Below, piece after piece: positions 8,689-58,761 of a stretch of 64,000 nt of DNA. The notes under the pieces were generated by a model that was given only the letters and a program-made list of their open reading frames with translations, had not been told where the DNA came from and did no database searches. The DNA comes from Acidihalobacter aeolianus. GTDB taxonomy: Bacteria; Pseudomonadota; Gammaproteobacteria; DSM-5130; Acidihalobacteraceae. The translations under genes were made by a program, and so were the position numbers. The stretch's first letter is position 1. The number at the start of each line of letters is the position of its first letter. The DNA lies in NCBI RefSeq assembly GCF_001753165.1, contig NZ_CP017448.1, positions 1,692,462 to 1,756,461 of the forward strand, read 5' to 3'.

Positions 8689-9279
8689 ATGAAGTGGGAA
8701 ATTCTCGACAAGGAACAGTGTTTCAAGGGGTTTTACGAGCTGCTGCGCTACCGCCTTCGGCATGCGCTGTTTGCCGGCGGCATGGGGCAACCGATCACCC
8801 GCGAGCTGATGATTCGCGGACACGCGGCGGCCGTGTTGCCCTACGACCCGGTCACCGATCAGGTACTGCTGGTCGAGCAGTTCCGGATCGGCGCCCTGGA
8901 TTCGCCGCGCGGCCCGTGGCTGATCGAGGTCATCGCCGGCCTGGTGGAGCCGGGAGAGCAACCGGAGGAGGTGGCCCGACGGGAAGCCATCGAGGAAGCC
9001 GGCTGCGAACTGCAGGAGATGCTGCCGATCTGCGAATACTATTCGAGTCCCGGCGGAACGACGGAACGCATCAGCCTGTTCGCGGCACGGATGCACAGCG
9101 CCGGTCTGGGCGGGATACACGGGCTTGCCGGGGAGGGCGAGGACATCCGCGCCTTTCTGCTCCCCGCCGACGAGGCGATCGAACAGATGCAGCGCGGACT
9201 GATCGACAACGCCATGAGCATCATCGCCCTGCAGTGGCTGGCCGCCAATCGTACCGGCCTGCGCGAAAGCTGGACCTAG
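8689..9279 (+). CDS. nudF: ADP-ribose pyrophosphatase (Nudix hydrolase)
   Basis: A 196-residue Nudix protein that hydrolyses ADP-ribose to AMP and ribose-5-phosphate. The Nudix box GX5EX7REUXEEXGU is present from GLVEPGEQPEEV through REAIEEAGCEL, and the ADPRase-specific ESSPGG-like element appears as YYSSPGGTTER. The N-terminal dimerisation sheet holds LLVEQFRIGAL. The length is typical. Its last 146 bp are part of a perfect 184-bp tandem duplication; this copy remains full length. Its stop codon originally overlapped that of the convergent gene at 9460. Confidence 0.92.
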   Translation: MKWEILDKEQCFKGFYELLRYRLRHALFAGGMGQPITRELMIRGHAAAVLPYDPVTDQVLLVEQFRIGALDSPRGPWLIEVIAGLVEPGEQPEEVARREAIEEAGCELQEMLPICEYYSSPGGTTERISLFAARMHSAGLGGIHGLAGEGEDIRAFLLPADEAIEQMQRGLIDNAMSIIALQWLAANRTGLRESWT

Positions 9280-9501
9280 TGCGTACTGGTGGCCGGATCG
9301 CTGTCCTCACGCTGGGCAGGGCGAGGACATCCGCGCCTTTCTGCTCCCCGCCGACGAGGCGATCGAACAGATGCAGCGCGGACTGATCGACAACGCCATG
9401 AGCATCATCGCCCTGCAGTGGCTGGCCGCCAATCGTACCGGCCTGCGCGAAAGCTGGACCTAGTGCGTACTGGTGGCCGGATCGCTGTCCTCACGCTGGG
9501 C
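9134..9501. repeat. Perfect 184-bp tandem duplication across convergent gene ends
   Basis: Positions 9134-9317 and 9318-9501 are identical over all 184 bases. Each unit contains the last 146 bp of nudF, stop codon included, plus 38 bp of the 3' end of the convergent gene at 9460-9765. The first unit completes nudF and the second completes the opposite gene, so the duplication broke neither. It left a dead nudF tail (9318-9463) and a dead tail of the other gene (9280-9317). Lack of any mismatch points to a recent event or an assembly duplication. Confidence 0.97.
9318..9463 (+). pseudogene. Duplicated 3' fragment of nudF
   Basis: This is an exact second copy of the last 146 bp of nudF, made by the 184-bp tandem duplication. 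It encodes the C-terminal 48 residues and stop but has no start or upstream domain. The in-frame ORF reaching back to 9289 is only read-through from the junction. It overlaps the stop codon of the convergent gene at 9460. Confidence 0.9.
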
Positions 9502-14101: not shown

Positions 14102-14581
14102 TGCATGGACCTCCTCGCCGAATGAAATTGCCGGCCGCCTGTCCGCCAACGTCGCAAGAGGGCGTCGAGCGACAGAACGCCAGGGCCGTGCAGCAGGGTG
14201 ACCAGCAACATCAATCCCCGCACTTTGTGATCGGTGAAACCGGTCGGCCACAGCGCCGGATAGGACACCACGACGATGATGTTGTAGACAAACAGGAAGC
14301 CGGCCGCAAACCGCGTACCGAGGCCCAGGACCAACAGCACGGGGAACGCCAGTTCGATGCCGGTGGCGAAATAGGCCGCAAACACCGGGGGGGAGCAGGG
14401 GTACGTGGTACAGGTACTCGAACAGATATACGGTCGAATACATGCTTTGGATTTTGACCATGCCGGCCCGCCAGAATACTTCGGCGACCCACAGCCTCAG
14501 CAGCAGGTCCGCCAGCGGGGACGCCTTGTTGAGGATCGCGGAAATGCGCGCATAAACGTCGACGGATTTATCGAGGATCAT
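14098..14581 (-). pseudogene. doxX copy 1, frameshifted
   Basis: A DoxX-family four-helix membrane protein read in two frames. Residues MILDKSVDVYAR through YHVPLLPP are in one frame and VFAAYFATGIELAFP to the end in another. The shift falls in a run of seven G at 14387-14393 (seven C on the coding strand), where six would keep the frame. The other copy at 31632 is intact. The cause is a one-base insertion, a homopolymer sequencing error or, less likely, programmed slippage. It overlaps the start codon of the thioredoxin-NHL gene. Confidence 0.85.
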
Positions 14582-14927
14582 GATCTTCTCCTGTTTGGGG
14601 CACGCATAAGACCCCGTACGCCAGCATCTGCGACAGGCTTTGCGCGAAATCGAAATCGGGATGTAACGCGAGCGTTTCATCCAGCGCATCCGCGAGGGAC
14701 GCGCCTTGGTCGACGAGAACCAGCCAGCGATAGTCGGGTTCGCCCAGCGACAGCACGAATACCTCTTCGCCTGGACGCGTCACGAGCAACGGCGCCGCTT
14801 CGAGCGTGTCGAGGTCGAGCCCTTCTGGGTGACGTTGCAGGTCGAGCGCAAACGACCAGATCTCGGCTGCGGCAAATCGCGGACTCAGCAGTCGGGCGGC
14901 CGGTATAAGGGCCAGCCCAGGGTCGAC
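14433..14927. repeat. 495-bp direct repeat, left copy (bufC end to doxX start)
   Basis: This segment matches 31954-32448 in the same orientation at 490 of 495 positions by eye (offset 17,521). It covers the 3' part of bufC and the 5' part of doxX. Outside it, the left copy continues into diverged doxX sequence on one side and stops abruptly at the Tn3-family remnant on the other. Confidence 0.95.
14568..14927 (-). pseudogene. 3' fragment of bufC (DUF2063), truncated
   Basis: The C-terminal about 120 residues of a HvfC/BufC-type protein (FDLERH-type region to QTGEDHDPR) without its N-terminal half. Homology to the intact gene at 32089-32874 ends at GTCGAC (14922-14927), where Tn3-family transposase sequence begins. 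One ORF through the fragment starts at an internal ATG at 14789, but no promoter or domain supports its use. Confidence 0.85.
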
Positions 14928-19600: not shown

Positions 19601-20026
19601 TTAGTAAGGCGCGCCCACCTCGTCTTCGTGTAGCGCCGCGATCAACGGACAGGCGACTTTCTCATCACCCTGCCGGCACTGTTCGAGCAATTTTGCAAGC
19701 GTTGCCTCGATCCGGTGCAGATCCTGTAGCCGCGTCCGCACATCGTTTAAGTGCTGGGCCGCCAATTCGGCCGCCGCATCGCATTGCATCCCCTCATCGA
19801 GTCGCAGCAGATGGTGGATTTCGTCAAGGCTGAATCCCATCCGTTGCGCCGACTTGATGAATTTCACCCGCGCAACATCCTCGGCTGAGTAGTGCCGAAT
19901 ACCCCCTGGCGGGCGAGGCGGTTCGCGCAACAAGCCCCTGCGTTGGTAGAACCGGATCGTCTCCACGTTGACGCCGACCCCTGCGGCCAGTTGTCCGATG
20001 GTCAATGCGGTAGCTATAGGTTCCAT
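19601..20026 (-). CDS. merR: Mercury-responsive regulator MerR
   Basis: A 141-residue MerR activator-repressor. The N-terminal helix-turn-helix (LTIGQLAAGVGVNVETIRFY) precedes the dimer helix. The three mercury ligands are at Cys82, Cys117 and Cys126, the same numbering as Tn501 MerR. It is transcribed away from merC across a 90-bp intergenic space holding the mer operator. It represses and, with Hg(II), activates the mer promoter by underwinding the long spacer. Confidence 0.95.
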   Translation of the reverse strand: MEPIATALTIGQLAAGVGVNVETIRFYQRRGLLREPPRPPGGIRHYSAEDVARVKFIKSAQRMGFSLDEIHHLLRLDEGMQCDAAAELAAQHLNDVRTRLQDLHRIEATLAKLLEQCRQGDEKVACPLIAALHEDEVGAPY

Positions 20027-20031
20027 TGGCC

Positions 20032-20062
20032 TTGACTCCGTACATTAGTACGGCAGTAAGTT
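20032..20062 (+). promoter_or_regulatory. mer operator-promoter
   Basis: TTGACT (-35, 20032-20037) and TAAGTT (-10, 20057-20062) are separated by 19 bp, the abnormally long spacer of MerR-controlled promoters. The spacer holds the dyad CCGTACATTAGTACGG, the MerR binding site. It drives merC and following genes and also lies against the divergent merR start. Confidence 0.92.
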
Positions 20063-20116
20063 TAGCCTACCGGAGTCCACCAAGCACTTACGAATCGTCA
20101 CCCAGGAGGTTCTGCC

Positions 20117-22220
<2,104 letters not shown>

Positions 22221-22255
22221 ACCACAGCGTCCGTTGGAGTGAGGATGTATAAGGC

Positions 22256-22936
22256 ATGATCCGACATCAAGACGACGAAAGCCGGCTGCACAGTAGGCAG
22301 AAGGTGGAAGCGGCCGCTGCCCGCTTGCGTGATCGCTTTCCTCTGGAAAGTGGGGTGATGGCCTTGTCGAGTCACGCCCTTGAGGATTATCGCCGTCTGA
22401 TCGATCACTGGTGCGATACCGCAAGCCCGCTAGCAACCGATGTGCTTAGCCCGGAGAGTCTGTATGCCTTACTGGCCATCGACGCCGTAGTTGATCAATC
22501 CGGGCAACTCGGCTGTTACCCCTTCAGCGTCTTGCCGACAGGCATACAGGTCCAACTTGGTGACCGTTCGGTTCATGCCATGTGTGCGATCGACGCCTTG
22601 GCGGTTTCGCGCGTCAGTGGCCAAGCGAGCCAGATTGTTGCCCCATGCGCCTTGTGCGATACGCAGTTGGCTCTCGGGATGCACGCCAACGGTAGCTTAC
22701 ACGAGGTGATGATGTATGAGGCGGCGGTCCTCTGGACCGACGAAACACAGGGAAGTTGCGGTACGAACGCGTGCTGCAACACCTTATGCCCGAGTATTCG
22801 TTTCGTCTGCCGCAGTTGCGCCGAAATAGAAAGCAAAAAGCATGAGAGTGACATTTTTACAGTTCCCCAGGCTGCTGTGGTTGCCAACGCTTTTTTCGGA
22901 TTTCAGGCAAGGCTGCGTGGTCTGGAGATTGGATAG
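22256..22936 (+). CDS. merB: Organomercurial lyase-like protein (MerB variant)
   Basis: A 226-residue protein related to MerB, which breaks carbon-mercury bonds. The catalytic core CYPFSV and HAMCAIDAL places Cys110 and Asp113 with the same spacing as Cys96 and Asp99 of MerB. The third catalytic Cys is probably Cys173 or Cys174 in SCGTNACCNTLCPS, but this region is unusually Cys-rich, with further Cys at FVCRSC. The C-terminus is otherwise unlike classical MerB. It follows merA by 35 bp. It may be a true lyase with altered range or a mercury-binding relative. Confidence 0.8.
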   Translation: MIRHQDDESRLHSRQKVEAAAARLRDRFPLESGVMALSSHALEDYRRLIDHWCDTASPLATDVLSPESLYALLAIDAVVDQSGQLGCYPFSVLPTGIQVQLGDRSVHAMCAIDALAVSRVSGQASQIVAPCALCDTQLALGMHANGSLHEVMMYEAAVLWTDETQGSCGTNACCNTLCPSIRFVCRSCAEIESKKHESDIFTVPQAAVVANAFFGFQARLRGLEIG

Positions 22937-30290: not shown

Positions 30291-30800
30291 TTAATCGTCG
30301 AGATACTCCTGAATCATTTGACGCCCACGATGGATGCGGCTTTTAACCGCTTCTCGCGTGAGTGCAAGTTGATTTGCAATCTCTGAAATCGAGTATTCCT
30401 CGACATCTCTCAAAATGATTACTGCCCGGTATTTATCAGGAAGAGACTGAATGGCCGAGATCAAGTCATATTGTAATCCTGGATTCTCGGTATAAATAAA
30501 TACAATATTATCCGGCTCAGGCAGAGTCGTAAGTCCGCGCATGGATCGTAATAGTCTGGAACACTCCCTTCGCACAATCGAAAAAATCCATGCAGGAAAT
30601 GAAACCAGTGTCCGAAGCGTGCCTAGTCTCCGATAAATTTGCATCATGGACTCCTGCACGGCATCGTCTGGGTCCACGCTGCTCGAGCATTGGGATTTGG
30701 CGATCCTTTGCAGATCTGGACGACACGAAATCAGTAATTTCTCGACAGCTTCCTGATCGCCCATTTTGGCCGATTCAAGAAGTTCGTGGTCATGCTGCAT
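30291..30800 (-). CDS. ECF-type RNA polymerase sigma factor
   Basis: A 169-residue extracytoplasmic-function sigma factor. Region 2 reads DPDDAVQESMMQIYRRL with the -10 recognising helix following; region 4 reads YSISEIANQLALTREAVKSRIHRGR. Its ATG lies 2 bp after the Sel1 gene stop, which in turn follows doxX by 1 bp, so it is the sixth gene of the bufferin operon. In Cupriavidus the related gig operon is controlled by the ECF factor RpoQ. No anti-sigma gene is recognised nearby. Confidence 0.9.
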   Translation of the reverse strand: MQHDHELLESAKMGDQEAVEKLLISCRPDLQRIAKSQCSSSVDPDDAVQESMMQIYRRLGTLRTLVSFPAWIFSIVRRECSRLLRSMRGLTTLPEPDNIVFIYTENPGLQYDLISAIQSLPDKYRAVIILRDVEEYSISEIANQLALTREAVKSRIHRGRQMIQEYLDD

Positions 30801-30802
30801 GC

Positions 30803-31630
30803 TCAGTTACCTCTCGTATTCTTGTTTTCTTTCTTGTTGTGATAAGCAACGGTTGTTTTTTCTTTCGCAATATATTTGATGTGCCTTAATGCTGATTTCG
30901 CAGAATAATCTCCTTGCGCCGCTGATTTGTTTAGCCAGTAGTCAGCGAGGCGCATATTTTTCGAGACCCCTAATCCTCGAAAATACATGCTTCCCAGATT
31001 GTATTGGGCACGTGCATCACCCTTCGATGCGGCCAAAGAAAACCAATGTATCGCTTTATTGTAATTGCGATGAACGCCTCGGCCGAGTTCATAAGCAATA
31101 CCGAGATTGTTTTCAGCCATGATATTGGATTGTAATGCAGCTTTTCTAAACCAATAAACAACCCTGTGCGGGTCGGAGTGCACATCAATACCATTGGCAT
31201 ATGCAATAGCCATATTGACTTCTGCGATTGGGTTGCCCTGATCGGCTGAACGACGATACCAGTAGATGGCTTTTGTCGCGCTGGCGGGGAACCCAAGACC
31301 TCTTGCATAATCTCTAGCCAATCGGCACTGTGCTTTTGCGCTTCCATTTGCAGCAGACTTTCGATACCAATAGTTCGCCTGTTTCCATGACTTTTGGTTT
31401 TTGTTGCCGATTTTCGTTTGCATCGGATCAAACCAAGCGCCACGTCTATATTGGGTATTGGCAATCTCTCGAGCTGTCATTTTTTTGAGTTCGGTTAATT
31501 TTTTTGCGAATTCGCTGTGTTTTAAGCTCAATCTATCTTGGTATGCGACAGCAACCGTTTCATTGGTTATCAACGCGTAGATTGGTAACATGTTATCAGC
31601 GCTCAGATGGCAATAAGATATCGGAATCAT
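30803..31630 (-). CDS. Sel1-repeat protein
   Basis: About 275 residues, with five or six Sel1/TPR-like repeats of the type AIYWYRRSADQGNPIAEVNMAIAYANG between residues about 75 and 260. A short hydrophobic stretch near the N-terminus might be a signal peptide. The ATG at 31628-31630 starts 1 bp after the doxX stop; the longer ORF from 31711 would overlap doxX. The base composition is AT-rich compared with bufB and bufC. It lies between the DoxX and sigma genes and may relay a signal to the sigma factor. Confidence 0.8.
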   Translation of the reverse strand: MIPISYCHLSADNMLPIYALITNETVAVAYQDRLSLKHSEFAKKLTELKKMTAREIANTQYRRGAWFDPMQTKIGNKNQKSWKQANYWYRKSAANGSAKAQCRLARDYARGLGFPASATKAIYWYRRSADQGNPIAEVNMAIAYANGIDVHSDPHRVVYWFRKAALQSNIMAENNLGIAYELGRGVHRNYNKAIHWFSLAASKGDARAQYNLGSMYFRGLGVSKNMRLADYWLNKSAAQGDYSAKSALRHIKYIAKEKTTVAYHNKKENKNTRGN

Positions 31631-31631
31631 T

Positions 31632-32102
31632 TTACGCAAGTTTTGCCCCGCTACGTGTTCTACGCCACCATAGCCGAATTGCGGCGTCAAATGATAAAAT
31701 TCCGGGGCCATGTAGTAGTGTCGTCAACAACATCAATCCCCACACCTTGTGGTCGGTGAAGCCGGTCGACCACAGTGCCGGAAATGAAATCACGGCGATG
31801 ATGTTGTAGACAAACAGGAAGCCGGCCGCAAACCGCGTGAACAGACCCAATGCAAGCAATATCGGGAAGCCAAGCTCGATACCTGTCGCCATGTAGGCCG
31901 CCACATCCGGCGGCAATAGCGGAACGTGGTATACATGCTGAAACATGTACATCGTCGAATACATGCTTTGGATTTTGACCATGCCGGCCCGCCAGAATAC
32001 TTCGGCGACCCACAGCCTCAGCAGCAGGTCCGCCAGCGGGGACGCCTTGTTGAGGATCGCGGAAACGCGCGCATAAACGTCGACGGATTTATCGAGGATC
32101 AT
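31632..32102 (-). CDS. DoxX-family membrane protein (bufferin operon)
   Basis: A 156-residue four-helix membrane protein, intact copy of the doxX family. Motifs are LLRLWVAEVFWRAG, YMATGIELGFPILLALG and FTDHKVWGLMLLTT. DUF2282-DUF692-DUF2063 operons normally contain such a DoxX gene (gigT in Cupriavidus). The start overlaps the bufC end by 14 bp, so translation is coupled. The first 150 bp belong to the 495-bp direct repeat; the rest is only about 75 % similar to copy 1. The C-terminal tail RTRSGAKLA is specific to this copy. Confidence 0.88.
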   Translation of the reverse strand: MILDKSVDVYARVSAILNKASPLADLLLRLWVAEVFWRAGMVKIQSMYSTMYMFQHVYHVPLLPPDVAAYMATGIELGFPILLALGLFTRFAAGFLFVYNIIAVISFPALWSTGFTDHKVWGLMLLTTLLHGPGILSFDAAIRLWWRRTRSGAKLA

Positions 32103-32448
32103 GATCTTCTCCTGTTTGGGGCACGCATAAGACCCCGTACGCCAGCATCTGCGACAGGCTTTGCGCGAAATCGAAATCGGGATGTAACGCGAGCGTTTCA
32201 TCCAGCGCATCCGCGAGGGACGCGCCTTGGTCGACGAGAACCAGCCAGCGATAGTCGGGTTCGCCCAGCGACAGCACGAATACCTCTTCGCCTGGACGCG
32301 CCACGAGCAACGGCGCCGCTTCGAGCGTGTCGAGGTCGAGCCCTTCTGGGTGACGTTCCAGGTCGAGCGCAAACGACCAGATCTCGGCTGCGGCAAATCG
32401 CGGACTCAGCAGTCGGGCGGCCGGTATGAGGGCCAGCCCGGGGTCGAC
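31954..32448. repeat. 495-bp direct repeat, right copy
   Basis: Matches 14433-14927 with five mismatches, in the same orientation. It is internal to intact bufC and doxX. The two copies bracket 17.0 kb of resistance genes. Confidence 0.95.
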
Positions 32449-32874
32449 CGCGTCCGCCAGCACAGCCAGGTCCGGCACGCCCAGAGGCGTGACTTCCGCG
32501 GCATGGAAGCAGGTGTGCCAGGCCCATTCGAGGCGGGCGACGTCCGGAAGATAAGACAGAGCGGCAAGTTTCGGCTGCCCGGCGAGGTGGTCGGGGAATG
32601 TCTCGCCGTAGGCGCGCAGGTCGCCACTGACCGAGGGTGTCTGCCACGCATAATCCTCTGCAACGATCTCGAAAAACGCCTCACCTACCAGTGCGCACAC
32701 GGCGGGGTAGATCCCGGCAAGCGCATCTCGGCGACTGATGCGCACGTTGTTCCGATAGATCGCGATGCGGCGGGAAGCAGAGAGATTACCGTCGGCTATC
32801 TCGAGCGGCGCGGTGCATTCCGGGTCATCCAACACCGCCGCGAATGCACCTTGCAGCTCAGACAATGTCGACAT
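32089..32874 (-). CDS. bufC: BufC/HvfC-type DUF2063 protein
   Basis: About 261 residues of the DUF2063 family, the partner protein that binds the precursor and delivers it to the MNIO enzyme. N-terminal motif: LQGAFAAVLDD, then SRRIAIYRNNVRISRRDALAGIYPAV; later LEWAWHTCFHA and a C-terminal small domain with GEPDYRWL. The ATG at 32872-32874 falls inside the bufB 3' end (17-bp overlap). A 3' fragment of a second copy lies at 14568-14927. Confidence 0.88.
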   Translation of the reverse strand: MSTLSELQGAFAAVLDDPECTAPLEIADGNLSASRRIAIYRNNVRISRRDALAGIYPAVCALVGEAFFEIVAEDYAWQTPSVSGDLRAYGETFPDHLAGQPKLAALSYLPDVARLEWAWHTCFHAAEVTPLGVPDLAVLADAVDPGLALIPAARLLSPRFAAAEIWSFALDLERHPEGLDLDTLEAAPLLVARPGEEVFVLSLGEPDYRWLVLVDQGASLADALDETLALHPDFDFAQSLSQMLAYGVLCVPQTGEDHDPR

Positions 32875-33733
32875 CCTGAACCTCTCCCAGTAGCCCTTCC
32901 GCGGTTGCCGCTTCCGTCTCAAGCACCGCAAGCGGGGGCAGGGCGGCATCCCATTCGATCAGGGTAGGGCGCGGGCCGACCAGCTCCAGAGTTTCTCGAT
33001 AGAGCGCCCAAACCTCGGCGCAGACGGGTTGATCGTGCGTATCGATGCGCAGCACCGTACCGTCCTCGAATTCACGTCGCGTATGCCCGGCCAGATGGAT
33101 CTCCCGCACGCGCCGCCGGTCAAGCGCACAAATGAAATCCAGCGCTGCATAGCCGTGATTGCAGGCATTCACGTAGACGTTGTTGACGTCGAGAAGAATG
33201 CCGCAGTCGGCCGATTCGGCCACGGCGCTCACGAATTCCCACTCGCGCAGCGTCGAGGCATCGAACTCCAGATAGCTGGAGACGTTCTCCAGCAGGATCT
33301 GCCGTCCGAGCGTGTCCTGCACCCGACCGATACGCTCCGCGACATGCGCGACCGCTTCCTCGGTATAGGGCAGCGGCAGCAGGTCGTTGAAGTGCCTGCC
33401 GCCCCGTGCGTTCCAACACAGGTGTTCGGATATCAGCGCCGGTTGCACCTGATCGGCCAGCATGCGCAGCCGCCGCAGGTGTCCGTCGTCCATGGGATCC
33501 GTATTGCCCAGCCCCATGCCGACGCCATGCAGGCTTAGCGGGTAACGCTCGGCCAGCATACGCAGATTGCGCAACGGCCGGCCTCCCGGACCGAAATAGT
33601 TTTCGCTATGGGCCTCGAGCCAGGCGGCTGCAGTGCCGCCCAGCAGGATTTCCCGTTCGTATTCGGCACGTAGCCCGATCCCGGCCTGTGCCGGGATCGG
33701 AGCAACATCGCCTTGGCGGTCAGGCGCGTTCAT
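32858..33733 (-). CDS. bufB: BufB/HvfB-type MNIO (DUF692) oxidative enzyme
   Basis: A 291-residue DUF692 multinuclear non-heme iron oxidative enzyme, which converts cysteines in the bufferin precursor to thiooxazole-type heterocycles. Metal-ligand regions are visible: SENYFGPGG, LHGVGMGLG, ISEHLCWN, LENVSSYL, LLDVNNVYVNACNHG, IHLAGH, DTHDQPV and LIEWD. The ATG at 33731-33733 lies 7 bp after the precursor stop. It has no signal peptide, so modification happens in the cytoplasm before export. Confidence 0.92.
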   Translation of the reverse strand: MNAPDRQGDVAPIPAQAGIGLRAEYEREILLGGTAAAWLEAHSENYFGPGGRPLRNLRMLAERYPLSLHGVGMGLGNTDPMDDGHLRRLRMLADQVQPALISEHLCWNARGGRHFNDLLPLPYTEEAVAHVAERIGRVQDTLGRQILLENVSSYLEFDASTLREWEFVSAVAESADCGILLDVNNVYVNACNHGYAALDFICALDRRRVREIHLAGHTRREFEDGTVLRIDTHDQPVCAEVWALYRETLELVGPRPTLIEWDAALPPLAVLETEAATAEGLLGEVQDVDIV

Positions 33734-33740
33734 GCGTCGA

Positions 33741-34133
33741 TCAGGAACCGCTCTCATCAAGCAGTTTTTCGCGCTTCATTTCGAGCATTTTCTTGACCAT
33801 CTCGCGTTTCTCCGGCGACATCTCCATCAGCTTGTGGTGGAACATCTGCTCGCGTTTGAGGGCAACATCGCTGGGATGCGTTGTGCCGCCCGCGATCATG
33901 CCGCATACGCCCTGCGGCACCATGATGAAGGCGTTCGGATCGCGCGCTTTCGGATCGGTGCCGGCGCAGGAACCGGTGGCGGTTTTGCAGTCGTTGCGAT
34001 AGGCCGCATTGACGCCGAAGCACTTGACCATTTTCGGGCCAGAGGCTGCGTTGGCTGCAGTACCTGCAGCCAGGGCTGCAGAAGCGACAACGCTGGCAAG
34101 AGCGACTTTAAGTACTTTATGGTGCGATCTCAT
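33741..34133 (-). CDS. bufA: Bufferin-type precursor peptide (DUF2282) with C-terminal extension
   Basis: A 130-residue exported precursor. The Sec signal peptide is residues 1-29 ([15 protein letters not shown]). The core [14 protein letters not shown] then [13 protein letters not shown] and VPQGVCG has Cys38, Cys49, Cys56 and Cys77, matching the four-Cys bufferin pattern that is turned into copper-binding thiooxazoles. After residue 83 an unusual charged helix ([20 protein letters not shown]) continues for about 47 residues, whereas bufferins usually end near this point. GAGAGG precedes the ATG. It is the first gene of the operon. Confidence 0.9.
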
Positions 34134-34351
34134 ATAGACCTCTCAATGAAGGATGGATAACGACAACTTCAACAGGCACTGACAATCTAGTGAATCAAGA
34201 TCGTTTTCAAGCAAGTTACCAATGCGGCGACTTACCCTTTATAGAGGCGCCAAACTGGTAAAAGGATTCACGGTATCGTAAAAAATTGGATCGAATGCCA
34301 AACATCGATCCGGAACGATATATGATCTGCCAAACAAATTAGGAGCAGCAG

Positions 34352-34800: not shown

Positions 34801-36106
34801 TTAACAGGCTGTTGAAAATTCCCCCGATTTAGCGGTTATCATGTTGATCAGGGTCCATTGGCGACGTGCCCCTTCGGATCTGGGGCCTGATTTTTCCCGA
34901 AAACAGCCCAAATCCCGATCTCTGGGCGCACCGATCCCTTGATGTGTGCCTTCAACATGCTGCCAGTCCCAGATTGCGCATCCGCACCAGGTTGTAGGCC
35001 GCCGCGCTGAGCACAAACTGGAAATCCAGTTTCTCGCGTCCGACAAACCGACTTTTGCGCAGACCCGCAATGGTCTTGAGCCAACCGAAGCATTCTTCGA
35101 TCCGCTTGCGGATCGTCAGGCTGGTTCGGTAACCGGGATGGCCGATGGTGCGCCCGTCGATGGCCGAGCGGCGCCCGGCCGTGTTCTGAGCCACATGCGG
35201 CGTGACGTTTCGTCCACGCATCGCCGCCACAAAGCCTTGCGTGTCATAGTTCTTGTCCGCGCCCAGCGTGATCCGGTGGCTCCCGCCGAGCGCGTCGACA
35301 AGCTCGACACCGGCCTCGCGCTCGGCCGTGCCGGTGGCCTGGCTCGTCTGCGACTCGACGATCAGGCCGTGGCGGTTTTCCATCAGCAGGTGTCCGAGGT
35401 AGCTGAGCTTGGCGGTCGTGCCTTCGCTCTTGCGATACAGCAAGGCATCCGGGTCGGTCCTGGAGACGTGCGTTTCCCGACACCGCTTCTGCCCGCGAAA
35501 GTCCACCGTGGGATTGCGCCCGCCACCGCTCGGCGGCGCGTCCTCGTCCCGGGGCCGGTAGCTCTTGTGCGAGGCCAGCGCTTCGATCAACGTGCCATCG
35601 ACGCTGAAGTGTTCGCTAGACAGCAGATCGGCCGCACGGGCCTGATCCAGCACCCGGGCGAAGAAGGTGCGGGCCACATCGCCTGCAAGCAGGCGGTCAC
35701 GGTTCTTGGTAAACGTGGAGTGGTGCCAGACCGGATCGTCCATGGAAAAGCCCACAAACCAGCGAAACAGCAGGTTGTAGTCGATCTGTTCGACCAACAG
35801 GCGTTCGCTGCGGATGGTGTAGAACGCCATCAACAGTTGCGCGCGCAGCAGCTTCTCCGGCGGGATCGAGTCACGGCCCATATGGGCATACAGCGCATCG
35901 AAGTCAGCGTCGAGTTCTTTGAGCGCTTGATCGACCATCCGCCGGATCGGGCGCAGAGGATGGTCCTTCGGCACCCGTTGCTCCGGGCTGACCGTGCTGA
36001 ACAGCCCATCCTGATGTATGTCGGCACCGCGCATCGGCCACAACCCTCACTCAACAATACAAAACCAATCTTCCGGGTTTACAGGACTTTTTCAACAGCC
36101 TGTTAA
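34801..36106 (-). mobile_element. IS5-family insertion sequence, complete
   Basis: A 1.3-kb element with perfect 18-bp inverted repeats TTAACAGGCTGTTGAAAA (34801-34818 and 36089-36106). TTAA occurs at both outer edges, so the target duplication may be these four bases. It carries one transposase. Joining the flanks without the element gives GTGCCCTTAAAATAGGGCAC, a perfect stem-loop, so it appears to have inserted into a hairpin loop. A decayed relative lies at 57809-58761. Confidence 0.9.
34952..36043 (-). CDS. IS5-family transposase
   Basis: A 363-residue DDE transposase. N-terminal DUF772-like domain (FSTVSPEQRVPKDHPLRPIR), then SSEHFSVDGTLIEA with the first catalytic Asp, ITLGADKNYDTQGF with the second, and RKRIEECFGWLKTIAG with the Glu. 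The ORF is complete with no stops. A second Met at 36034 could be the real start (MRGADIHQDGLF). All motifs needed for activity look intact. Confidence 0.93.
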   Translation of the reverse strand: MWPMRGADIHQDGLFSTVSPEQRVPKDHPLRPIRRMVDQALKELDADFDALYAHMGRDSIPPEKLLRAQLLMAFYTIRSERLLVEQIDYNLLFRWFVGFSMDDPVWHHSTFTKNRDRLLAGDVARTFFARVLDQARAADLLSSEHFSVDGTLIEALASHKSYRPRDEDAPPSGGGRNPTVDFRGQKRCRETHVSRTDPDALLYRKSEGTTAKLSYLGHLLMENRHGLIVESQTSQATGTAEREAGVELVDALGGSHRITLGADKNYDTQGFVAAMRGRNVTPHVAQNTAGRRSAIDGRTIGHPGYRTSLTIRKRIEECFGWLKTIAGLRKSRFVGREKLDFQFVLSAAAYNLVRMRNLGLAAC

Positions 36107-36340
36107 AATAGGGCACGAGTCGCCTCCATCCGAGTGAGCCAGATGAAGGGTTTCTGTTTCTTGTTGTGGCAGTCAATATAATCGGCAGATAGCCTACCCC
36201 TACCCCAGCAGAAAAAATTCCTGCCCGGAGTCAAGCTCCGAAGATACTTGATTGACCCGTTCCTGTATATATTTTATTATTTGCGTAAATGTCGAAGCGA
36301 TGCGTCCGTGAAAACATCAGGTAAATTCCCCGTCGGTCCA

Positions 36341-36691
36341 ATGTGCAACGTGACCTGCTTCGAACAGGAGAAGGTTGCTCGCGTGAAAGCGGGACTTGTG
36401 GCTGAGCAAAAATTACTGCCTCAATTGGCCGAATTTTATAAGTTGCTCGGCAACACAACGCGGCTGAAGATACTCTTTGCGTTAACCCAAGGTGAACTGT
36501 GCGTTTGTGATGTCGCTCACGTTCTGGAACTTACAGTGGCGGCGACATCTCACCAGCTTAAGCTCTTGCGCGACCAAGGTTGGCTCTCCATGCGTAACGA
36601 TGGAAAGATGGTTTATTACCGGGCGAACAGTGGCGAGTTGCTCAAGGCACTTCATGATGATTTGAAGATACTGGAAACACGATGGAGGTAA
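36341..36691 (+). CDS. CadC/SmtB-like metal-responsive repressor
   Basis: A 116-residue ArsR-family regulator with the CadC metal site layout: Cys2 and Cys6 near the N-terminus and Cys54/Cys56 in GELCVCDVAHV. This pattern binds Cd, Pb, Zn or related metals and releases DNA. The HTH is LTVAATSHQLKLLRDQG. The ATG at 36341 is chosen because it places the N-terminal Cys pair correctly. The RND trio starts 37 bp downstream, so it is the likely regulator. An AT-rich promoter region (36268-36300) precedes it. Confidence 0.9.
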   Translation: MCNVTCFEQEKVARVKAGLVAEQKLLPQLAEFYKLLGNTTRLKILFALTQGELCVCDVAHVLELTVAATSHQLKLLRDQGWLSMRNDGKMVYYRANSGELLKALHDDLKILETRWR

Positions 36692-36728
36692 GAGATTTTT
36701 CGGCCACAACGTTTAGACAATATCGATA

Positions 36729-38150
36729 ATGAGAAGATATATATACAGTATGACATGTGTCTTGTCTCTATCTGGCTGCGCCACGTTTCATGCGCACCCA
36801 CTCACTGCGGGGACAAGTGCCGCGACCCTGCAACAACGTTCGTTGCAGTCCTCTGACCTGAGAGATTACCTTGCTCGGCACGATATCAATGTCACGCGTT
36901 GGCCCTTACAGCAATGGTCTGTAGCCTCGCTTGTGCTAGTGGCGCACTACTATGATCCGAACCTCGCAATCGCCCGTGATCGCTGGTTCAAAGCCATTGC
37001 CGCCGAACGAACAGCGGCTGCTTACCCGAATCCGCCCCTCAGTCTCACGCCTCTGTACACAACAAATGCGCCGGTCAACATATCCCCCTGGACTGTGGAT
37101 ATCGGCGCCGCTTTGAGGCTGATCACAGCCGGTAAACACGGCGACCGTATCGCTGTGGCGCGAGCACACGTCGAAGCTGCACGCTACACCTTTATGCAGG
37201 CGGAATGGGCCATTGATGCTCAAGTGAAGAATGCCTGGCTTGACCTCGTGACAGCGCGCCGCCGTCAGCTCCTGCTCGAGGCCCGAGTGGAAGATACTCG
37301 TGCACTTTTTGACGCTGACACTGCGGCTGTGAACGCCGGCCAGAGCCCTCCGTTCGACGCGTTTGCCACAAAACGGCTATGGAACAAGGCAATGAATGCG
37401 GTGGTCACTGGCCGCGCCGCAACAGCACGCGCGCAACAAGCTCTGGCTAATGCCATCGGTATTCCCGATGGCCGGCTGGCTAAGATCCGCATCAGTGCCA
37501 CTGACAGAATATCGAGACCCAGGAGCCTACCGCCGGAGAGCCAATTACAAACTTTCGTATTGACTCAGCGCGCTGATGTGCGGGCAGATGTACTCCGTTA
37601 TGCGGCAAGTCAGTTCCGGTTGAAGCTCGCGATCGCTCAGCAATACCCTAGTATCACCGTTGGACCTGGCTATCGGTGGGATCAAGGTGCTCATCGTTGG
37701 TCGCTTGGGTTCTCACTGATATTGCCCGTATTCAACCAGAACCAAGGGCCTATCGCCGAAGCACGCGCGCAACGGACGCTGAGAGCGGACCAGTTACGCG
37801 CCCTCCAGCTGGAGTTGATCAGCCAGCTAAAAAATGCAGTCACCACATACCGTACCGCACAGCGAATGCTGGAGTTGGCGCTACAGCGTTTGCGGGATGA
37901 CCAGAAGCAGGTGCGAGACGACCATACTGCGCTGACCCACGGTCAGATTGCTCGCACTACTTGGCTGCGAGCTCGCATAGCATTAGTGCAGGGCGAACTC
38001 GATGTTATCGATGCACACGCGCAACTGTTACATGCACGCCTGCGTATCGCCACCCTGATCGAACACCCGCTGGGGTCGGACACGGCGCCGAATTCCAAGC
38101 GGCTTCACGCGATGTCGTGGTCCTGTCGGTTCCCTAGCGCAACAACGTGA
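36729..38150 (+). CDS. RND-system outer-membrane factor (CzcC/TolC family)
   Basis: A 473-residue lipoprotein: signal peptide ending in the lipobox LSGCA (Cys17), then two OEP (outer membrane efflux) repeats rich in long helices such as ALRLITAGKHGDRIAVARAHVEAARY and GDRWSLGF-type strands. It forms the outer-membrane channel for the CzcB/CzcA-like proteins downstream. Nearest family is CzcC/CusC. The 3' end lies 9 bp from the next gene. Confidence 0.85.
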   Translation: MRRYIYSMTCVLSLSGCATFHAHPLTAGTSAATLQQRSLQSSDLRDYLARHDINVTRWPLQQWSVASLVLVAHYYDPNLAIARDRWFKAIAAERTAAAYPNPPLSLTPLYTTNAPVNISPWTVDIGAALRLITAGKHGDRIAVARAHVEAARYTFMQAEWAIDAQVKNAWLDLVTARRRQLLLEARVEDTRALFDADTAAVNAGQSPPFDAFATKRLWNKAMNAVVTGRAATARAQQALANAIGIPDGRLAKIRISATDRISRPRSLPPESQLQTFVLTQRADVRADVLRYAASQFRLKLAIAQQYPSITVGPGYRWDQGAHRWSLGFSLILPVFNQNQGPIAEARAQRTLRADQLRALQLELISQLKNAVTTYRTAQRMLELALQRLRDDQKQVRDDHTALTHGQIARTTWLRARIALVQGELDVIDAHAQLLHARLRIATLIEHPLGSDTAPNSKRLHAMSWSCRFPSATT

Positions 38151-38159
38151 GCACTTTCC

Positions 38160-39149
38160 ATGATGCGGACCTTTTACTCAGTTCTGTTCATTGCTGTACT
38201 GATACTGCCGCTGCCGGTCTATGCCACTCTTCAGGGTGTGGCATCGCTGTCGGTGGTAGTGACGCCACGGATGTCCCGGACCATAAGCTTGCGCACCGAG
38301 AAATTGCGCCGACAGTCTTGGCGACCATCGTGGACCGCTTACGGCCGCGTGATCTCGGGGGCGAGCCTGATAGCCACTGCGCGCACTGTAATCGACGCAC
38401 GACAGACCCTTGTGGCGATGCGTGTTACTACTGCGGCGGCCGATGCAGAGTACCGGCGTTTGCGGAGGTTGTATGCTCTGCATGCAAATGTCGCGTATCA
38501 CCAAGTGCAAAGCGCACAAGCACGTTGGCAAGCCGATCATGCCGCACTGCAGAAGGCAAAGATGGGTCTCATGGTGGTGCGCGCATCTGCGAGTGCCGAG
38601 TGGGGATCGGTGATCAGCAATTGGCTAACCCCGGGCTCGCGACACCTGAGGCAGTTAGCTGCAGGTGAGGCACGTCTTATACGACTTACACTGCCAGGGC
38701 GCACGCGGATCACTTCACCTAAAAATAGCATTACTCTCGTCACGATTGATGGAGCCAGAATCCCGGCTACCTGGATTTCCGTTGCTCCGACCTTAGGGCA
38801 GGGGTTACAGGGAATTGCGTTTTACGCCTGGACGATTCAGGTCAAAGACCGACTTGCCTATGGCACCGGCGTGGTCGGTCTCATTCCTCATGGACCAAAG
38901 ATGGATGGCGTTATCGTGCCGCGGACAGCTGTGATCTGGTCCGGTTCTTCGGCCTGGATATTCATGCGCAGCGATACAAATACATATCGGCGCGAGCCTA
39001 TATCGACACGTTACCCGACCCGAGATGGCTGGTTCGAACCCAATACCCCTGGTCCGGGCGACGTTATTGTTACCGAGGGAGCACAAACGCTGTTTTCCAT
39101 CCAACAACAGCAGGGCGAGTCGTCGTCGCCACCTGGCGACGACGACTGA
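38160..39149 (+). CDS. RND-system membrane fusion protein (CzcB-like), diverged
   Basis: A 329-residue periplasmic adaptor with signal peptide (residues 1-22). A helical hairpin (ATARTVIDARQTLVAMRVTTAA to QSAQARWQADHAALQKAK) is followed by beta-barrel and membrane-proximal parts ending GDVIVTEGAQTLFS. The C-terminus is a short acid stretch GDDD. Its lipoyl-like half motifs are weak and the N-terminal metal-binding region of CzcB is missing, so metal choice cannot be deduced. It belongs to a three-gene operon with the pump. Confidence 0.75.
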   Translation: MMRTFYSVLFIAVLILPLPVYATLQGVASLSVVVTPRMSRTISLRTEKLRRQSWRPSWTAYGRVISGASLIATARTVIDARQTLVAMRVTTAAADAEYRRLRRLYALHANVAYHQVQSAQARWQADHAALQKAKMGLMVVRASASAEWGSVISNWLTPGSRHLRQLAAGEARLIRLTLPGRTRITSPKNSITLVTIDGARIPATWISVAPTLGQGLQGIAFYAWTIQVKDRLAYGTGVVGLIPHGPKMDGVIVPRTAVIWSGSSAWIFMRSDTNTYRREPISTRYPTRDGWFEPNTPGPGDVIVTEGAQTLFSIQQQQGESSSPPGDDD

Positions 39150-39163
39150 GGGGACGCTAAACG

Positions 39164-42100
39164 ATGCTGAAGCAGTTGGTTACATGGTCTCTGCATCATC
39201 GCGGGGTGGCAATCACGTTAGCTGCAATATTGGCGATCTATGGTGGTTTCAAGCTTACACATGCGCAATACAGCGTCTTCCCTGAGTTCGCGCCACCCCA
39301 AGTGGTTATTCAAACGCAGGCCCCGGGGTTCTCTCCCCGTCAGGTCGAGAAGTTGGTTACCACGCCGATCGAAAATGTGATCAATGGGGTGATCGGTATC
39401 GCCTCGATGCGCTCGGTTTCCACCGCTGGCATCTCAGTCATCAAAGTAACCTTCGGCCAGAACACGAACGTTTATCTTGACCGACAGTTCGTTGCCGAAC
39501 GGCTAGCTAATGTGGCCAACCAACTCCCATCAGGGGCTGAGACGCCCACAATGACACCGTTGACCTCGTCGACGGGGAAGGTGCTGATATTCGGGCTCAC
39601 TTCCAAGACACGATCATTGATGGACGTGCATACCGTCGCCCAGTGGACGGTGAGACGCCGGCTCCTGGCCATCAAGGGTGTGTCCGATGCAGTGGTCTTC
39701 GGTGGCCAAGTGCGCCAGTTACAGGTCCAACTCCATCCTGTCGCTTTAGAGCATTACGGGCTGTCAATCGCCCAGATCGCACATGCCACCAGCTTGGCCA
39801 CCGGAATTCGCGCCGCGGGTTTCATTGATACACCCAACCAACGTATCCAGATACAGGCCGAAGGCCAAGCCACAAACCCCGCCCGCTTAGCGACGGCAAT
39901 CGTTGCCATGCGGCACGGCGTTCCAGTCACACTGGGTGACGTAGCGACGGTCACATATGCCCCGGCACCTCCGGTAGGGGCTGCCTCGATTGACGGTCAC
40001 CCCGGTGTGCAAATTCTTGTCTGGGCACAATACGGCACTAACACGCTGGTGGTGACACGACGCGTGGACGCGGCCTTACACGCCCTCGAACCTGTGCTCG
40101 CTAAACAGCACATAAAGCTCTGGCCGGATCTTTTCAGGCCCGCAAGCTTCGTACATCGAGCCGTCGGCAATCTCGGAAGTGCGCTGACCATCGGTGGTGT
40201 GCTGGTGGCAATCATGTTGTTTCTATTCCTCTTTAACTGGCGGACCGCACTCATCTCTCTGGCCGCCATTCCTTTGTCGCTACTGACCGCAACTCTGCTT
40301 CTGCAGATGTTCGGTTACACCCTCAATACGATGACGTTAGGCGGATTGGCAATAGCAATCGGTCTGTTGGTAGACGACGCGGTAATCACGGTGGAGAACA
40401 TCTACCGCAGGTTGAGCGAAAATAATGCCCAGAGTGCACCACGTAGCACGTTGCGAGTCATTCGTGATGCAACTCTGGAGGTTCGTAGCGCCGTAGTCTA
40501 TGCGACCCTGGCCATCGCCATGGTGTTCGTGCCAGTGATGACATTGCCTGGAGTTGCCGGCCGTTTGTTTGCGCCGTTGGGGTATGCCTACGTGCTGGCC
40601 ACATTGGCTTCATTGCTCGTGGCGTTGACTGTAACACCGGTGCTGTGCATGTTTTGGTTAGCCCGTGGGTCTATCCCCAGCCGCGAACCGCCCCTCATAC
40701 GTTGGATCAAGCCAGGTTACCGCTATGTGCTTTTGCGGATAGATCGCCATTATCGGTGGGTCTTCGCGGCAGTGTTACTCATGGTTCTGCTGGGCGCCAG
40801 TGCTTTGCCTTTTTTCGGTGCCCGCTTTATCCCACAACTCAAGGAAGGTCACTACATCATCCATATGGTCATGACGGCGGGCACATCGCTTGGGCAGTCC
40901 CTACGTATGGGCAAGATCGTGTCCGCTCACCTTGAAGCATTACCGTTCGTAGAGTCTGTGACACAACACGTGGGACGGGCGCCGGAATCTCACGATGTCC
41001 TAGGCACCAATACCAGCGAGTTCGACGTTGCTCTCAAGCCGATGGGCGGTCCAGCAATCGTAACAGCACGACAAACTATACAGAATGTGGTCGACGCCAT
41101 CCCCGGTGCTACTTTCGCGGTTAAGACGTTCCTGTCTGCCCGCATCCAAGAGACCATTTCCGGCCAGAGAGCACCGGTGGTGGTACATGTGTTTGGCTTG
41201 AAGCTGAACCAGCTTGGCTCCATGGCACGTCAGGTCGCGGCTATTTTACGCACGATTCCGGGAGCCACGGGCGTGCAAATGCAGTCGCAACCGAATAGCC
41301 CTTCGCTTGTAATCCGTCTGGAGCCAAGCGCATTGGCACGCTGGGGACTGCACCCTGTGGACGTGCTGGACACGTTGCACACGGCCTACGGCGGTGATGT
41401 CGTTGGGCAGATCTATACCGGGGATCGTATCTTCGATGTCACAGTAAGTCTGCCATCCTCTCAGCGACGAGATCCATCGATTATCGGGAATCTACTGCTA
41501 CGCGCCAGCGATGGTGTGACGGTGCCACTTCGTGATGTGGCGATGATCTATGCCACGAGCGGACCAAAGGCAATCCTTCACGAAGGCGGTCGACGCGTGA
41601 TTACGGTTACCTCTGGTGTGGCCGGGCGTGACATCGCCTCTTTCGTTAGGGCCGCAAAGGCCGCGCTCGACAGTAAGCTCGAGCTACCTCACGGGGCTTA
41701 CTTGGAGTTCGCAGGAAGCGCGCAGGAGCAAAAACGAGCAACCACTCGATTGCTTCTCACGTCCCTCATCGCAGCTGTTTTCATCGTGCTGCTGCTGTCC
41801 TTGGTGCTGACCAGCATGCGCAACCTTGCCCTGATCCTCGCCAATATCCCATTCGCCTTGATTGGTGGCGTTCTAGGTATATTTGTCGTATTTGGGGGCA
41901 CCCTATCGATGGGAGGCATGGTGGGCTTTGTTACCTTGTTTGGTATCACGCTGCGCAATGGGATGATGATGATTGCTCACTATGAACATCTGGTATATGT
42001 AGAAGGGGAACGCTGGAACAAAGCGTTGGCCATACGGGGGGCACAGGAACGGCTCGCCCCAATTTTGATGACTACTTTAGTAACAGCGTTCGGTCTTTTG

Positions 42101-42259
42101 CCGTTAGCTGTGGGCCGCCAGGCTCCAGGTAATGCAATTGATGGCCCCATGGCAATCGTCATCTTGAGCGGATTAATGACATCTGCGATATTGAATCTGT
42201 TGGTGTTGCCCAGCACGGTACTGCGCTTCGGACGATTTACTCATAAGTCGGTAGATTAG
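39164..42259 (+). CDS. RND-superfamily heavy-metal efflux pump (CzcA-like)
   Basis: A 1031-residue inner-membrane proton antiporter, the pump of the tripartite system. Twelve helices and two periplasmic loops are expected; the helix-4 proton-relay region reads GLAIAIGLLVDDAVITVEN, retaining paired Asp and a Glu. N-terminus has the signature FPEFAPPQVVIQTQAPGFSP. The motif differs from CzcA and CusA themselves, so the exact metal remains open. Upstream CadC-like regulator suggests divalent soft-metal efflux. Confidence 0.88.
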   Translation: MLKQLVTWSLHHRGVAITLAAILAIYGGFKLTHAQYSVFPEFAPPQVVIQTQAPGFSPRQVEKLVTTPIENVINGVIGIASMRSVSTAGISVIKVTFGQNTNVYLDRQFVAERLANVANQLPSGAETPTMTPLTSSTGKVLIFGLTSKTRSLMDVHTVAQWTVRRRLLAIKGVSDAVVFGGQVRQLQVQLHPVALEHYGLSIAQIAHATSLATGIRAAGFIDTPNQRIQIQAEGQATNPARLATAIVAMRHGVPVTLGDVATVTYAPAPPVGAASIDGHPGVQILVWAQYGTNTLVVTRRVDAALHALEPVLAKQHIKLWPDLFRPASFVHRAVGNLGSALTIGGVLVAIMLFLFLFNWRTALISLAAIPLSLLTATLLLQMFGYTLNTMTLGGLAIAIGLLVDDAVITVENIYRRLSENNAQSAPRSTLRVIRDATLEVRSAVVYATLAIAMVFVPVMTLPGVAGRLFAPLGYAYVLATLASLLVALTVTPVLCMFWLARGSIPSREPPLIRWIKPGYRYVLLRIDRHYRWVFAAVLLMVLLGASALPFFGARFIPQLKEGHYIIHMVMTAGTSLGQSLRMGKIVSAHLEALPFVESVTQHVGRAPESHDVLGTNTSEFDVALKPMGGPAIVTARQTIQNVVDAIPGATFAVKTFLSARIQETISGQRAPVVVHVFGLKLNQLGSMARQVAAILRTIPGATGVQMQSQPNSPSLVIRLEPSALARWGLHPVDVLDTLHTAYGGDVVGQIYTGDRIFDVTVSLPSSQRRDPSIIGNLLLRASDGVTVPLRDVAMIYATSGPKAILHEGGRRVITVTSGVAGRDIASFVRAAKAALDSKLELPHGAYLEFAGSAQEQKRATTRLLLTSLIAAVFIVLLLSLVLTSMRNLALILANIPFALIGGVLGIFVVFGGTLSMGGMVGFVTLFGITLRNGMMMIAHYEHLVYVEGERWNKALAIRGAQERLAPILMTTLVTAFGLLPLAVGRQAPGNAIDGPMAIVILSGLMTSAILNLLVLPSTVLRFGRFTHKSVD

Positions 42260-57615: not shown

Positions 57616-57808
57616 GATGAACTGCTCTCGAATTTTATGAATTTCAACAAAATAGGACGTTCATAATAGATAGCCCTTATGAGGCTTCATTGATGAGAGC
57701 GAGAAATATTATAATATCCGGAGCCTTATGCTGAAATTACCCTACAAAATGATTTTTAGATTAGCAATAAAGCTCTTCCATTACGTAGGCATAGCTGTTT
57801 CGAAAAAC
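57616..57808. other. AT-rich intergenic region
   Basis: 193 bp after the ATP sulfurylase gene with no gene. It contains an AT-rich palindrome AATATTATAATAT near 57708-57720. No terminator with a clear T-run was found. Confidence 0.4.
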
Positions 57809-58761
57809 ATCCAAAATCCGGATCTCTGGGCGCACCGATCTCTTGGCGCGAGCCTTCAACAGGCTACCAGTCCCAGATTGCGCATCCGTACCAGATTGTA
57901 AGCAGCCGTGCACAGCACGAACTGAAAGTCCAGTTTCTCACGACCAACAAAGCGACTCTTGCACCGTCCCGCAATGGTCTTGAGCCAACCAAAGCATTCT
58001 TCGATCCGCTTGCGTACCGTCAGGCTGGTTCGGTAACCGGGATGGCCGATGGTGCGCCCGTCGATGGCCGAGCGCCGCCCGGCCGTGTTCTGAGCCACAT
58101 GCGGCGTGACGTTTCGTCCCCGCATCGCCGCCACAAAGCAAAGCCTTGCGTGTCATAGTGCTTATCCGCGCCCAGCGTGATTCGGTGGCTCCCGCCGAGC
58201 GCGTCGACAAGCTCGACACCGGCCCCGCGCTCGGCCGTGCCGGTGGCCTGGCTCGTCTGGGACTCGACGATCAGGCCGTGGCGGTTTTCCATCAGCAGAT
58301 GTCCGAGGTAGCTGAGCTTAGCGGTGGTGCATTCGCTCTTGCGATACAGCAAGGCATCCGAGTCAGTCCGGGAGTGGAGTGGTGCCAGATCGGATCGTCC
58401 ATTGAAAAGCCCACAAACGAGCGAAACAGCAGATTGTAGTCAATCTGTTCGACCAACAGGCGTTCGCTGCCGATGGTGTAGAACGCCATCAATCGTTGCG
58501 CGCGCAGCAGTTTCTCCGGCGGAATCGAGTTACGACCCATCCGGGCATACAGCGCATCGAAGTCGGCGTCGAGCGCCTAAAGTGCCTCGTCCACCCTCCG
58601 CCGAATCGACCGCAGCGGATGATCCTTCGGCACCCGATGCTCGGGAGTGACCGTGCTGAACAGCGTATCTTGATGTATATCCGCACCGCGCATCGACCAC
58701 AACCCTCGCTCAATAATCCAAGAGCGATCTTCCAGATTTTCACGGCTTTTCAACGGCTAAT
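57809..58761 (-). pseudogene. Decayed IS5-family element with internal deletion
   Basis: A degenerate relative of the element at 34801-36106. Compared with that copy it lacks about 250 bp near 58370 (between TCCGGGA and GTGGAGTGG), carries a 5-bp CAAAG insertion near 58137, and contains stop codons such as CTAAAG near 58577. The left inverted repeat is gone and the right one is eroded (GGCTTTTCAACGGCTAA). The transposase is dead. Confidence 0.88.

Follow-up and report, generated by a model that had tools for sequence, protein, structure and literature searches.

The DNA analyzed here, referred to as the window, is a 64,000-base stretch of the Acidihalobacter aeolianus genome (contig NZ_CP017448.1, positions 1,692,462 to 1,756,461 of the forward strand). 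Its minus strand carries a compact run of six genes, bufA-bufB-bufC-doxX-sel1-sigma, encoding a bufferin system, a Sel1-repeat protein and, as the last gene, a sigma factor of the extracytoplasmic function (ECF) family; a putative ECF promoter stands ahead of the run (Table 1). The gaps between successive genes are 7, -17, -14, 1 and 2 bases, negative values being overlaps. Recomputing the coordinates gave the order and spacing described in an earlier sequence-only reading of this DNA, and its claim that a bufferin operon ends here in an ECF sigma gene of its own is borne out by the Pfam families and by the match of BufB to the NCBIfam MNIO_BufB model. bufB is the only MNIO gene detected in the genome. 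The start of BufA resembles a signal peptide when judged by eye. BufA falls below the cut-off of the NCBIfam BufA2 model (27.4 against 60), and BufC and DoxX are under those of HvfC and HvfX, respectively. In the accessible text of PMC12452194, Buf1 operons are defined by a DUF2282 precursor with a signal peptide and four conserved cysteines. By the family models, the window operon contains such a DUF2282 precursor, an MNIO maturase, a DUF2063 partner and DoxX.

Table 1. Promoter and genes of the bufferin operon in the window
Feature	Position	Strand	Details
putative ECF promoter GAATCCTTTT-N12-CCTCT	34243..34269	-	109 bases upstream of the bufA ATG
bufA, bufferin precursor (DUF2282, Buf1 type), 130 amino acids, four cysteines	34133-33741	-	Pfam PF10048, E 2.6e-16, 59.8 bits against a cut-off of 22.4
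bufB, MNIO maturase (MbnB_TglH_ChrH)	33733-32858	-	Pfam, E 1.1e-102; NCBIfam NF050167 (MNIO_BufB), 365.2 bits against a cut-off of 310
bufC, DUF2063 partner protein	32874-32089	-	Pfam PF09836, E 3.6e-20, 72.5 bits against a cut-off of 27.2
doxX, membrane protein	32102-31632	-	Pfam PF07681, E 3e-18, 66.7 bits against a cut-off of 23.6
sel1, Sel1-repeat protein, 275 amino acids	31630-30803	-	Pfam Sel1, E 7.6e-36, 4 stretches
sigma, ECF sigma factor, 169 amino acids, last gene	30800-30291	-	Pfam Sigma70_r4_2, E 1e-15; Sigma70_r2, E 1.3e-11

The element ahead of bufA was found by reading bufA upstream regions and then by pattern searches with up to two mismatches; GAATCCTTTT-N12-CCTCT can be read as a -35 box GAATCC and a -10 box CCTCT separated by a 16-base spacer. 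The exact element occurs once in the 3.5-Mb genome, and the congener G001 also has a single exact copy, ahead of its sigma-type bufA. For a wider comparison, genome contigs were scanned with an alignment of the sigma factor, and the best 80 of at least 427 stretches encoding relatives were retained as loci. By script labels these comprise 46 pairs of DUF2892 and sigma, 16 loci with sigma before bufB, six bufABC-doxX-sigma operons and 12 unclassed loci. At zero to two mismatches the first gene is preceded by the element, at a distance of no more than 400 bases, in all six bufABC-doxX-sigma operons and in 24 of the 46 DUF2892-sigma pairs. Across the 80 loci (901,103 bases, up to two mismatches) there are 51 sites on the sigma strand, one on the other strand and none for the reversed pattern. 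The element is absent, at the same tolerance, from all 29 fetched MNIO loci without a sigma match, whose flanks were at most about 1.5 kb and in some cases shorter.

Because the element precedes all six database operons of the same layout and none of the 29 fetched sigma-less MNIO loci, we consider it probable that this is a self-amplifying bufferin operon, in which the terminal ECF sigma factor drives the GAATCC-N16-CCTCT promoter and thereby its own gene, with sel1 as an accessory. As its conservation suggests, sigma would direct RNA polymerase to the element upstream of bufA, and bufA, bufB, bufC, doxX, sel1 and sigma would be transcribed as one unit. By analogy with published bufferin work, BufB and BufC would modify the secreted BufA peptide, which would bind soft metal ions in the periplasm; a bufferin of this class would be expected, once modified, to bind copper and to help growth in its presence. 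A promoter this sharply conserved should make the targets of the sigma factor readable from sequence in many species. Further element sites in the sigma-family loci precede a cytochrome c-thioredoxin-DsbD set (L145) and, in L098, a DoxX gene and a gene for an EF-hand/EGKCG peptide, which suggests a theme of periplasmic thiol and soft-metal stress. Others precede a DUF302 gene (L084) and a radical-SAM/DUF3641 gene (L077), and a gene with a multicopper-oxidase match (23.1 against 21 bits) lies 520 bases after such a site in L080. Within the window genome, up to two mismatches yield six sites compared with two for the reversed control, so the weaker ones should not be taken for a regulon. Folding of the leader RNA is unremarkable (z -0.36). 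A TGTCA/CGTTA pair nearer to bufA was also considered as the promoter and was dropped, as it was not seen by eye in sigma-bearing operons outside the genus. No description of the GAATCC motif or promoter was recognized in the literature searched, most subscription papers being outside its reach.

Among the 80 loci, the sigma factors closest to that of the window, 55-69% identical, belong to the six bufA-bufB-bufC-doxX-sigma operons (L077, L078, L079, L082, L085 and L101), found in Rhodanobacter, Burkholderiales and others. The spacing between doxX and sigma varies among them from an overlap of 11 bases in L078 to gaps of 53, 55, 115, 448 and 1210 bases. More broadly, the window sigma groups with sigma factors whose genes frequently form a pair with one for a small YgaP-like membrane protein (DUF2892); the window locus itself has no DUF2892 gene. 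In a tree of 30 sigma factors, those of bufferin operons require two changes, and a single change suffices in 76% of bootstrap trees, which makes one origin likely. When 369 genomes of the class were drawn, only the window genome and G210 matched sigma at E 1e-18 among the matches listed, which do not include the sigma-bearing G001. A DUF6789 membrane protein gene follows sigma in L081 (6515-6973) and L084 (6713-7132), and a Mesorhizobium locus (L083 7748-8967) encodes, close to bufferin and MerA-like genes, a sigma-NrsF pair in addition to a sigma factor of this type. A literature search for an ECF sigma factor with DUF2892 gave no paper, and none was recognized as describing this sigma branch among the literature searched.

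Several observations weigh against a single transcript driven by its own sigma factor. Upstream of the first gene, the element was found in just 2 of the 16 loci with sigma before bufB and 5 of the 12 unclassed loci, and 22 of the 46 DUF2892 pairs lack it at up to two mismatches. The doxX-sigma gap is 1210 bases in L079 and 448 in L082, and the element recurs in L079, 208 bases ahead of sigma; given these, sigma would not always be carried on the operon's transcript. The gap in L082 holds a possible open reading frame of 136 amino acids (2902-3312), at the place taken by sel1 in the window, so other genes may enter the doxX-sigma slot. The G+C content of sel1 (44%) and sigma (47%) is below the 55-64% of the other four genes, suggesting a different history for the two. 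Finally, a weak promoter-like site on the operon strand within sel1 leaves room for an internal transcription start for sigma (the two sites there, 31175-31159 and 31148-31119, are one terminator-like and one promoter-like). The scan of the operon region, which gave three terminator-like and four promoter-like sites compared with shuffle means of 4.7 and 3.8, placed neither kind at the doxX-sel1 junction, where a promoter and terminator dividing the two genes would have undone the single operon of the sequence-only reading.

The tightness of the last junctions is less certain. The sel1 start common to the window and its congener is an internal ATG at 31591, which would widen the doxX-sel1 gap to 40 bases (33 in the congener), and the one-base gap is therefore uncertain. 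As for the proposed translational coupling of sel1 and sigma, the two-base gap stands in the window; the tightness is not kept in G001, where 25 bases separate the two genes and GAGGAG lies ahead of sigma.

DNA similarity to G001 (blastn, E 1e-10, 15 kb compared) extends from 34271, two bases past the element, to 30290 at the end of sigma, and no farther; the unit from the promoter to the sigma stop is thus common to both genomes, and the surroundings differ. Identities to the G001 copy are 90% for bufA, 81% for doxX, 67% for sel1 and 86% for sigma. In the sigma-type operon of G001, deletions and a frame change disrupt bufB and bufC (L062 8440-9400), and bufA, doxX, sel1, sigma and the promoter element have all stayed intact. 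The G001 sel1 open reading frame (7953-7186) is free of stops, the two counted in that stretch falling beyond the start and at the end. Neither sel1 nor sigma occurs in the 12-kb stretches taken for the second bufABC-doxX locus of G001, the one in G002 and the two bufferin loci of G004. The window has a second trace of such genes on the minus strand (14131-14927), consisting of the end of bufC and a frame-shifted doxX remnant that are 90% identical to 31683-32448. It is flanked by a Tn3-type transposase on one side and an NHL/thioredoxin-like gene on the other, a place that corresponds by similarity to the sigma-less locus of G001 and G002, and probably represents the genus's former bufferin locus without sigma. 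With a remnant at the sigma-less locus of the window and broken bufB and bufC in the sigma-type operon of G001, the two species seem to have retained bufB and bufC in different copies. Just upstream of the window operon lies a DDE transposase open reading frame (34952-36043), with a damaged copy, 86-91% identical, at 57804-58757.

The sequence-only reading had suggested that the Sel1 protein could be a novel signal relay or anti-sigma factor and had named a conserved doxX-sel1-sigma neighborhood as a thing to look for. Spelled out, this alternative makes Sel1 a genus-specific anti-sigma factor or signal adaptor, a cytoplasmic solenoid that would keep sigma bound until metal or redox stress sets it free. 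Some Sel1 proteins, ExoR among them, regulate signaling, and this one is encoded immediately ahead of sigma in each of the two genomes with a copy, shares the low G+C content of sigma, has no clear N-terminal hydrophobic stretch and has remained under purifying selection while bufB and bufC decayed in G001. The neighborhood, however, is not conserved: none of the 80 sigma-family loci has a Sel1 match at E 1e-3 (best E 0.17), and sel1 is found between doxX and sigma only in the window genome and one of two congeners. Likewise, 57 loci of Sel1 relatives, with flanks of about 1.5 kb, contain no bufA, bufB, bufC, doxX or sigma at E 1e-3. Thirty-six of the 369 class genomes have a Sel1 match at E 1e-32, and that of the window alone begins at residue 1; in the rest of those listed the match begins at residue 36 or later. 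Nor does the protein match any anti-sigma family in Pfam. Between the window and G001, the ratio of nonsynonymous to synonymous distances (dN/dS, Nei-Gojobori method) is 0.27 for sel1, 0.07 for sigma, 0.09 for bufA and 0.09 for doxX, rough values given synonymous distances of 0.56-1.40; dN is 0.213 for sel1 compared with 0.080 for sigma. By these estimates sel1 is under purifying selection, looser than that on its neighbors. A structural model of Sel1, built from two sequences and weak (mean predicted local distance difference test score, pLDDT, 66.9), shows helices of fair confidence beginning near residue 71; its residues 1-67 score below 50 except residue 34. Since the related operons lack sel1, the sigma factor does not appear to need it in general. 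sel1 looks like a local addition to the operon, for which a genus-specific role is possible; that this role is to hold sigma in check strikes us as rather unlikely, and we regard Sel1 as a putative accessory inserted between doxX and sigma, so far in this genus only, that would be no general part of the switch. In the literature searched, no paper describing a Sel1 partner for such a sigma factor was recognized; one mentions a Sel1 gene solely as upregulated, and the accessible main text of PMC12452194 makes no mention of Sel1.

The window sigma has no recognized anti-sigma partner, as had been noted earlier: NrsF (PF06532) has no match in the whole window genome, the Caulobacter control being positive, and no open reading frame with the HxxxCxxC motif of zinc-binding anti-sigma (ZAS) proteins occurs in the 900 bases that follow sigma, on its strand, in the window, in G001 or in 31 tested loci of the 80. 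The candidate checks on sigma are the adjacent membrane protein, DoxX here and DUF2892 elsewhere, or no anti-sigma factor at all. That the small membrane protein beside sigma is its anti-sigma factor or sensor is a tentative possibility, consistent with the missing NrsF and HxxxCxxC partners, with the 46 DUF2892-sigma pairs, with a doxX that ends 115 bases or less from sigma, or overlaps it, in four of the six bufABC-doxX-sigma operons, and with the CPAC motif seen by eye in four DUF2892 proteins. The argument is one of adjacency, however, and adjacency is uneven: DoxX is present in sigma-less bufferin operons too, doxX is farther downstream where sigma precedes bufB, DUF2892 comes after sigma in Nostoc, and a DUF2892-like open reading frame in L087 lacks the second cysteine of CPAC. 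To much the same degree one may entertain a sigma factor without any protein inhibitor, controlled by its own synthesis from the self-amplifying promoter, with metal sensing placed elsewhere. Twelve loci were read and showed no recurring neighbor of sigma but DoxX or DUF2892, apart from DUF6789 in two; yet an unchecked positive loop is expected to stay on, and most studied ECF factors have an inhibitor. Slightly more speculative is the general proposal of an undescribed ECF branch gated by an adjacent small membrane protein (DUF2892/YgaP-like, often with CPAC; DoxX in bufferin operons) rather than by a classical anti-sigma factor. If true, such a gate would represent a novel type of sensor, for periplasmic thiols or soft metals, feeding a self-amplifying promoter, and the promoter offers a ready handle for finding it. 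A regulator of the RpoQ/SigF type that has lost its NrsF partner, finally, is very improbable, although operons of the same kind are its targets in Caulobacter and Cupriavidus (PMC3511200 and PMC10304878, in their accessible parts). The window sigma is 26% identical to the NrsF-linked sigma in L083 and 32% identical to RpoQ over 115 residues. In the tree, the two NrsF-linked sigma factors stand apart from the rest with support of 100/99; the branch of the window sigma is defined only against these two, RpoQ being long-branched and no other ECF groups being included. Both sigma types occur in one locus, L083. The promoters differ as well: GTAACC-type sites lie in the C. metallidurans rpoQ region (L176), no GAATCC element occurs within 4 kb around gig-rpoQ at up to four mismatches, and by eye GTAACC is absent from the 230 bases before the window bufA, where a GTAACT is GTGACT in the congener. 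On these comparisons the window sigma is not of the RpoQ/SigF type, and the parallel with RpoQ drawn in the sequence-only reading is not supported.

The window contains further metal-related genes. About 8 kb from the operon are merR, merC, merA and a merB-like gene (19601-22936), and on the other side (36308-42259) are genes for an ArsR-type regulator and, both scoring below family cut-offs, a CusA/CzcA-like RND pump and an outer-membrane factor-like protein. MerA relatives are encoded near sigma in six of the 80 loci, namely L083 and five of the six bufABC-doxX-sigma operons (the sixth, L085, ends inside sigma). Their identity is 46-71% in L078, L083 and L101 and 31-35% in L077, L079 and L082, and the latter need not be mercuric reductases. 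Such mer and efflux neighbors would fit a response to soft-metal stress. Elsewhere in the window there is a near-perfect 191-base tandem repeat (9127-9317 and 9311-9501, 99%).

Among the closest parallels to the window operon are the six database operons, which have its core genes, the closest sigma factors and the promoter element but no sel1. Among published systems, cited here from the accessible parts of the papers, gigPABT-rpoQ-rsqA of Cupriavidus metallidurans likewise sets a bufA-bufB-bufC-doxX operon beside an ECF sigma factor and is induced by copper and gold, although evidence that RpoQ drives gig is lacking according to the same paper (PMC10304878). It differs in that rpoQ is divergent and RsqA is an NrsF protein (245 bits). 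Sigma and NrsF genes have been reported in Buf1 clusters (PMC12452194). In Caulobacter, the ECF factor SigF drives the DUF2282-DUF692-DUF2063-DoxX genes CC3254-CC3257 and CC2907-CC2905 under metal stress, but with NrsF as anti-sigma factor, a GTAACC-N16-CGAA promoter and sigF in its own unit with CC3252 (PMC3511200). In Haemophilus influenzae, a cluster of doxX, COG3220/UPF0276 and DUF2063 genes is ECF-dependent after hypochlorite, whereas the sigma gene lies elsewhere, beside msrAB, and the 67-residue anti-sigma factor of this RpoE2-HrsE system is related to those of Neisseria and Streptomyces (PMC7907618). The Neisseria sigmaE operon, NMB2140-NMB2145, comes close in design: its six genes are co-transcribed, as seen from transcripts on sigma overexpression, it is autoregulated by its own ECF sigma factor, and 12-13 bases lie between its two promoter boxes, matching the spacing in the window (PMC2893595, PMC3240639). 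NMB2140 is DoxX/D-like and a gonococcal gene encodes a DUF2063 protein, with matching Haemophilus proteins in PMC7907618. Set against the window by description, without the NMB2144 sequence, the Neisseria operon differs in having doxX first, no Sel1, the zinc anti-sigma factor MseR after sigma, and the boxes GTMAGBWTT and CGTCTAAH (PMC2893595, PMC3240639). The ZAS hallmark of the sigmaE-MseR type does not occur in the 900 bases after the window sigma, and the conservation of the promoter would agree with autoregulation of the operon by its own sigma factor. One gene of the Neisseria operon we take to be DUF2282. The idea of a self-regulated operon that carries its own sigma gene is thus already known from Neisseria (PMC2893595); new here are another promoter, the lack of a recognized anti-sigma factor and an extra gene. 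To the sigma solutions published for bufferin-type operons, SigF-NrsF, Neisseria sigmaE-MseR and Haemophilus RpoE2-HrsE, the window locus adds another.

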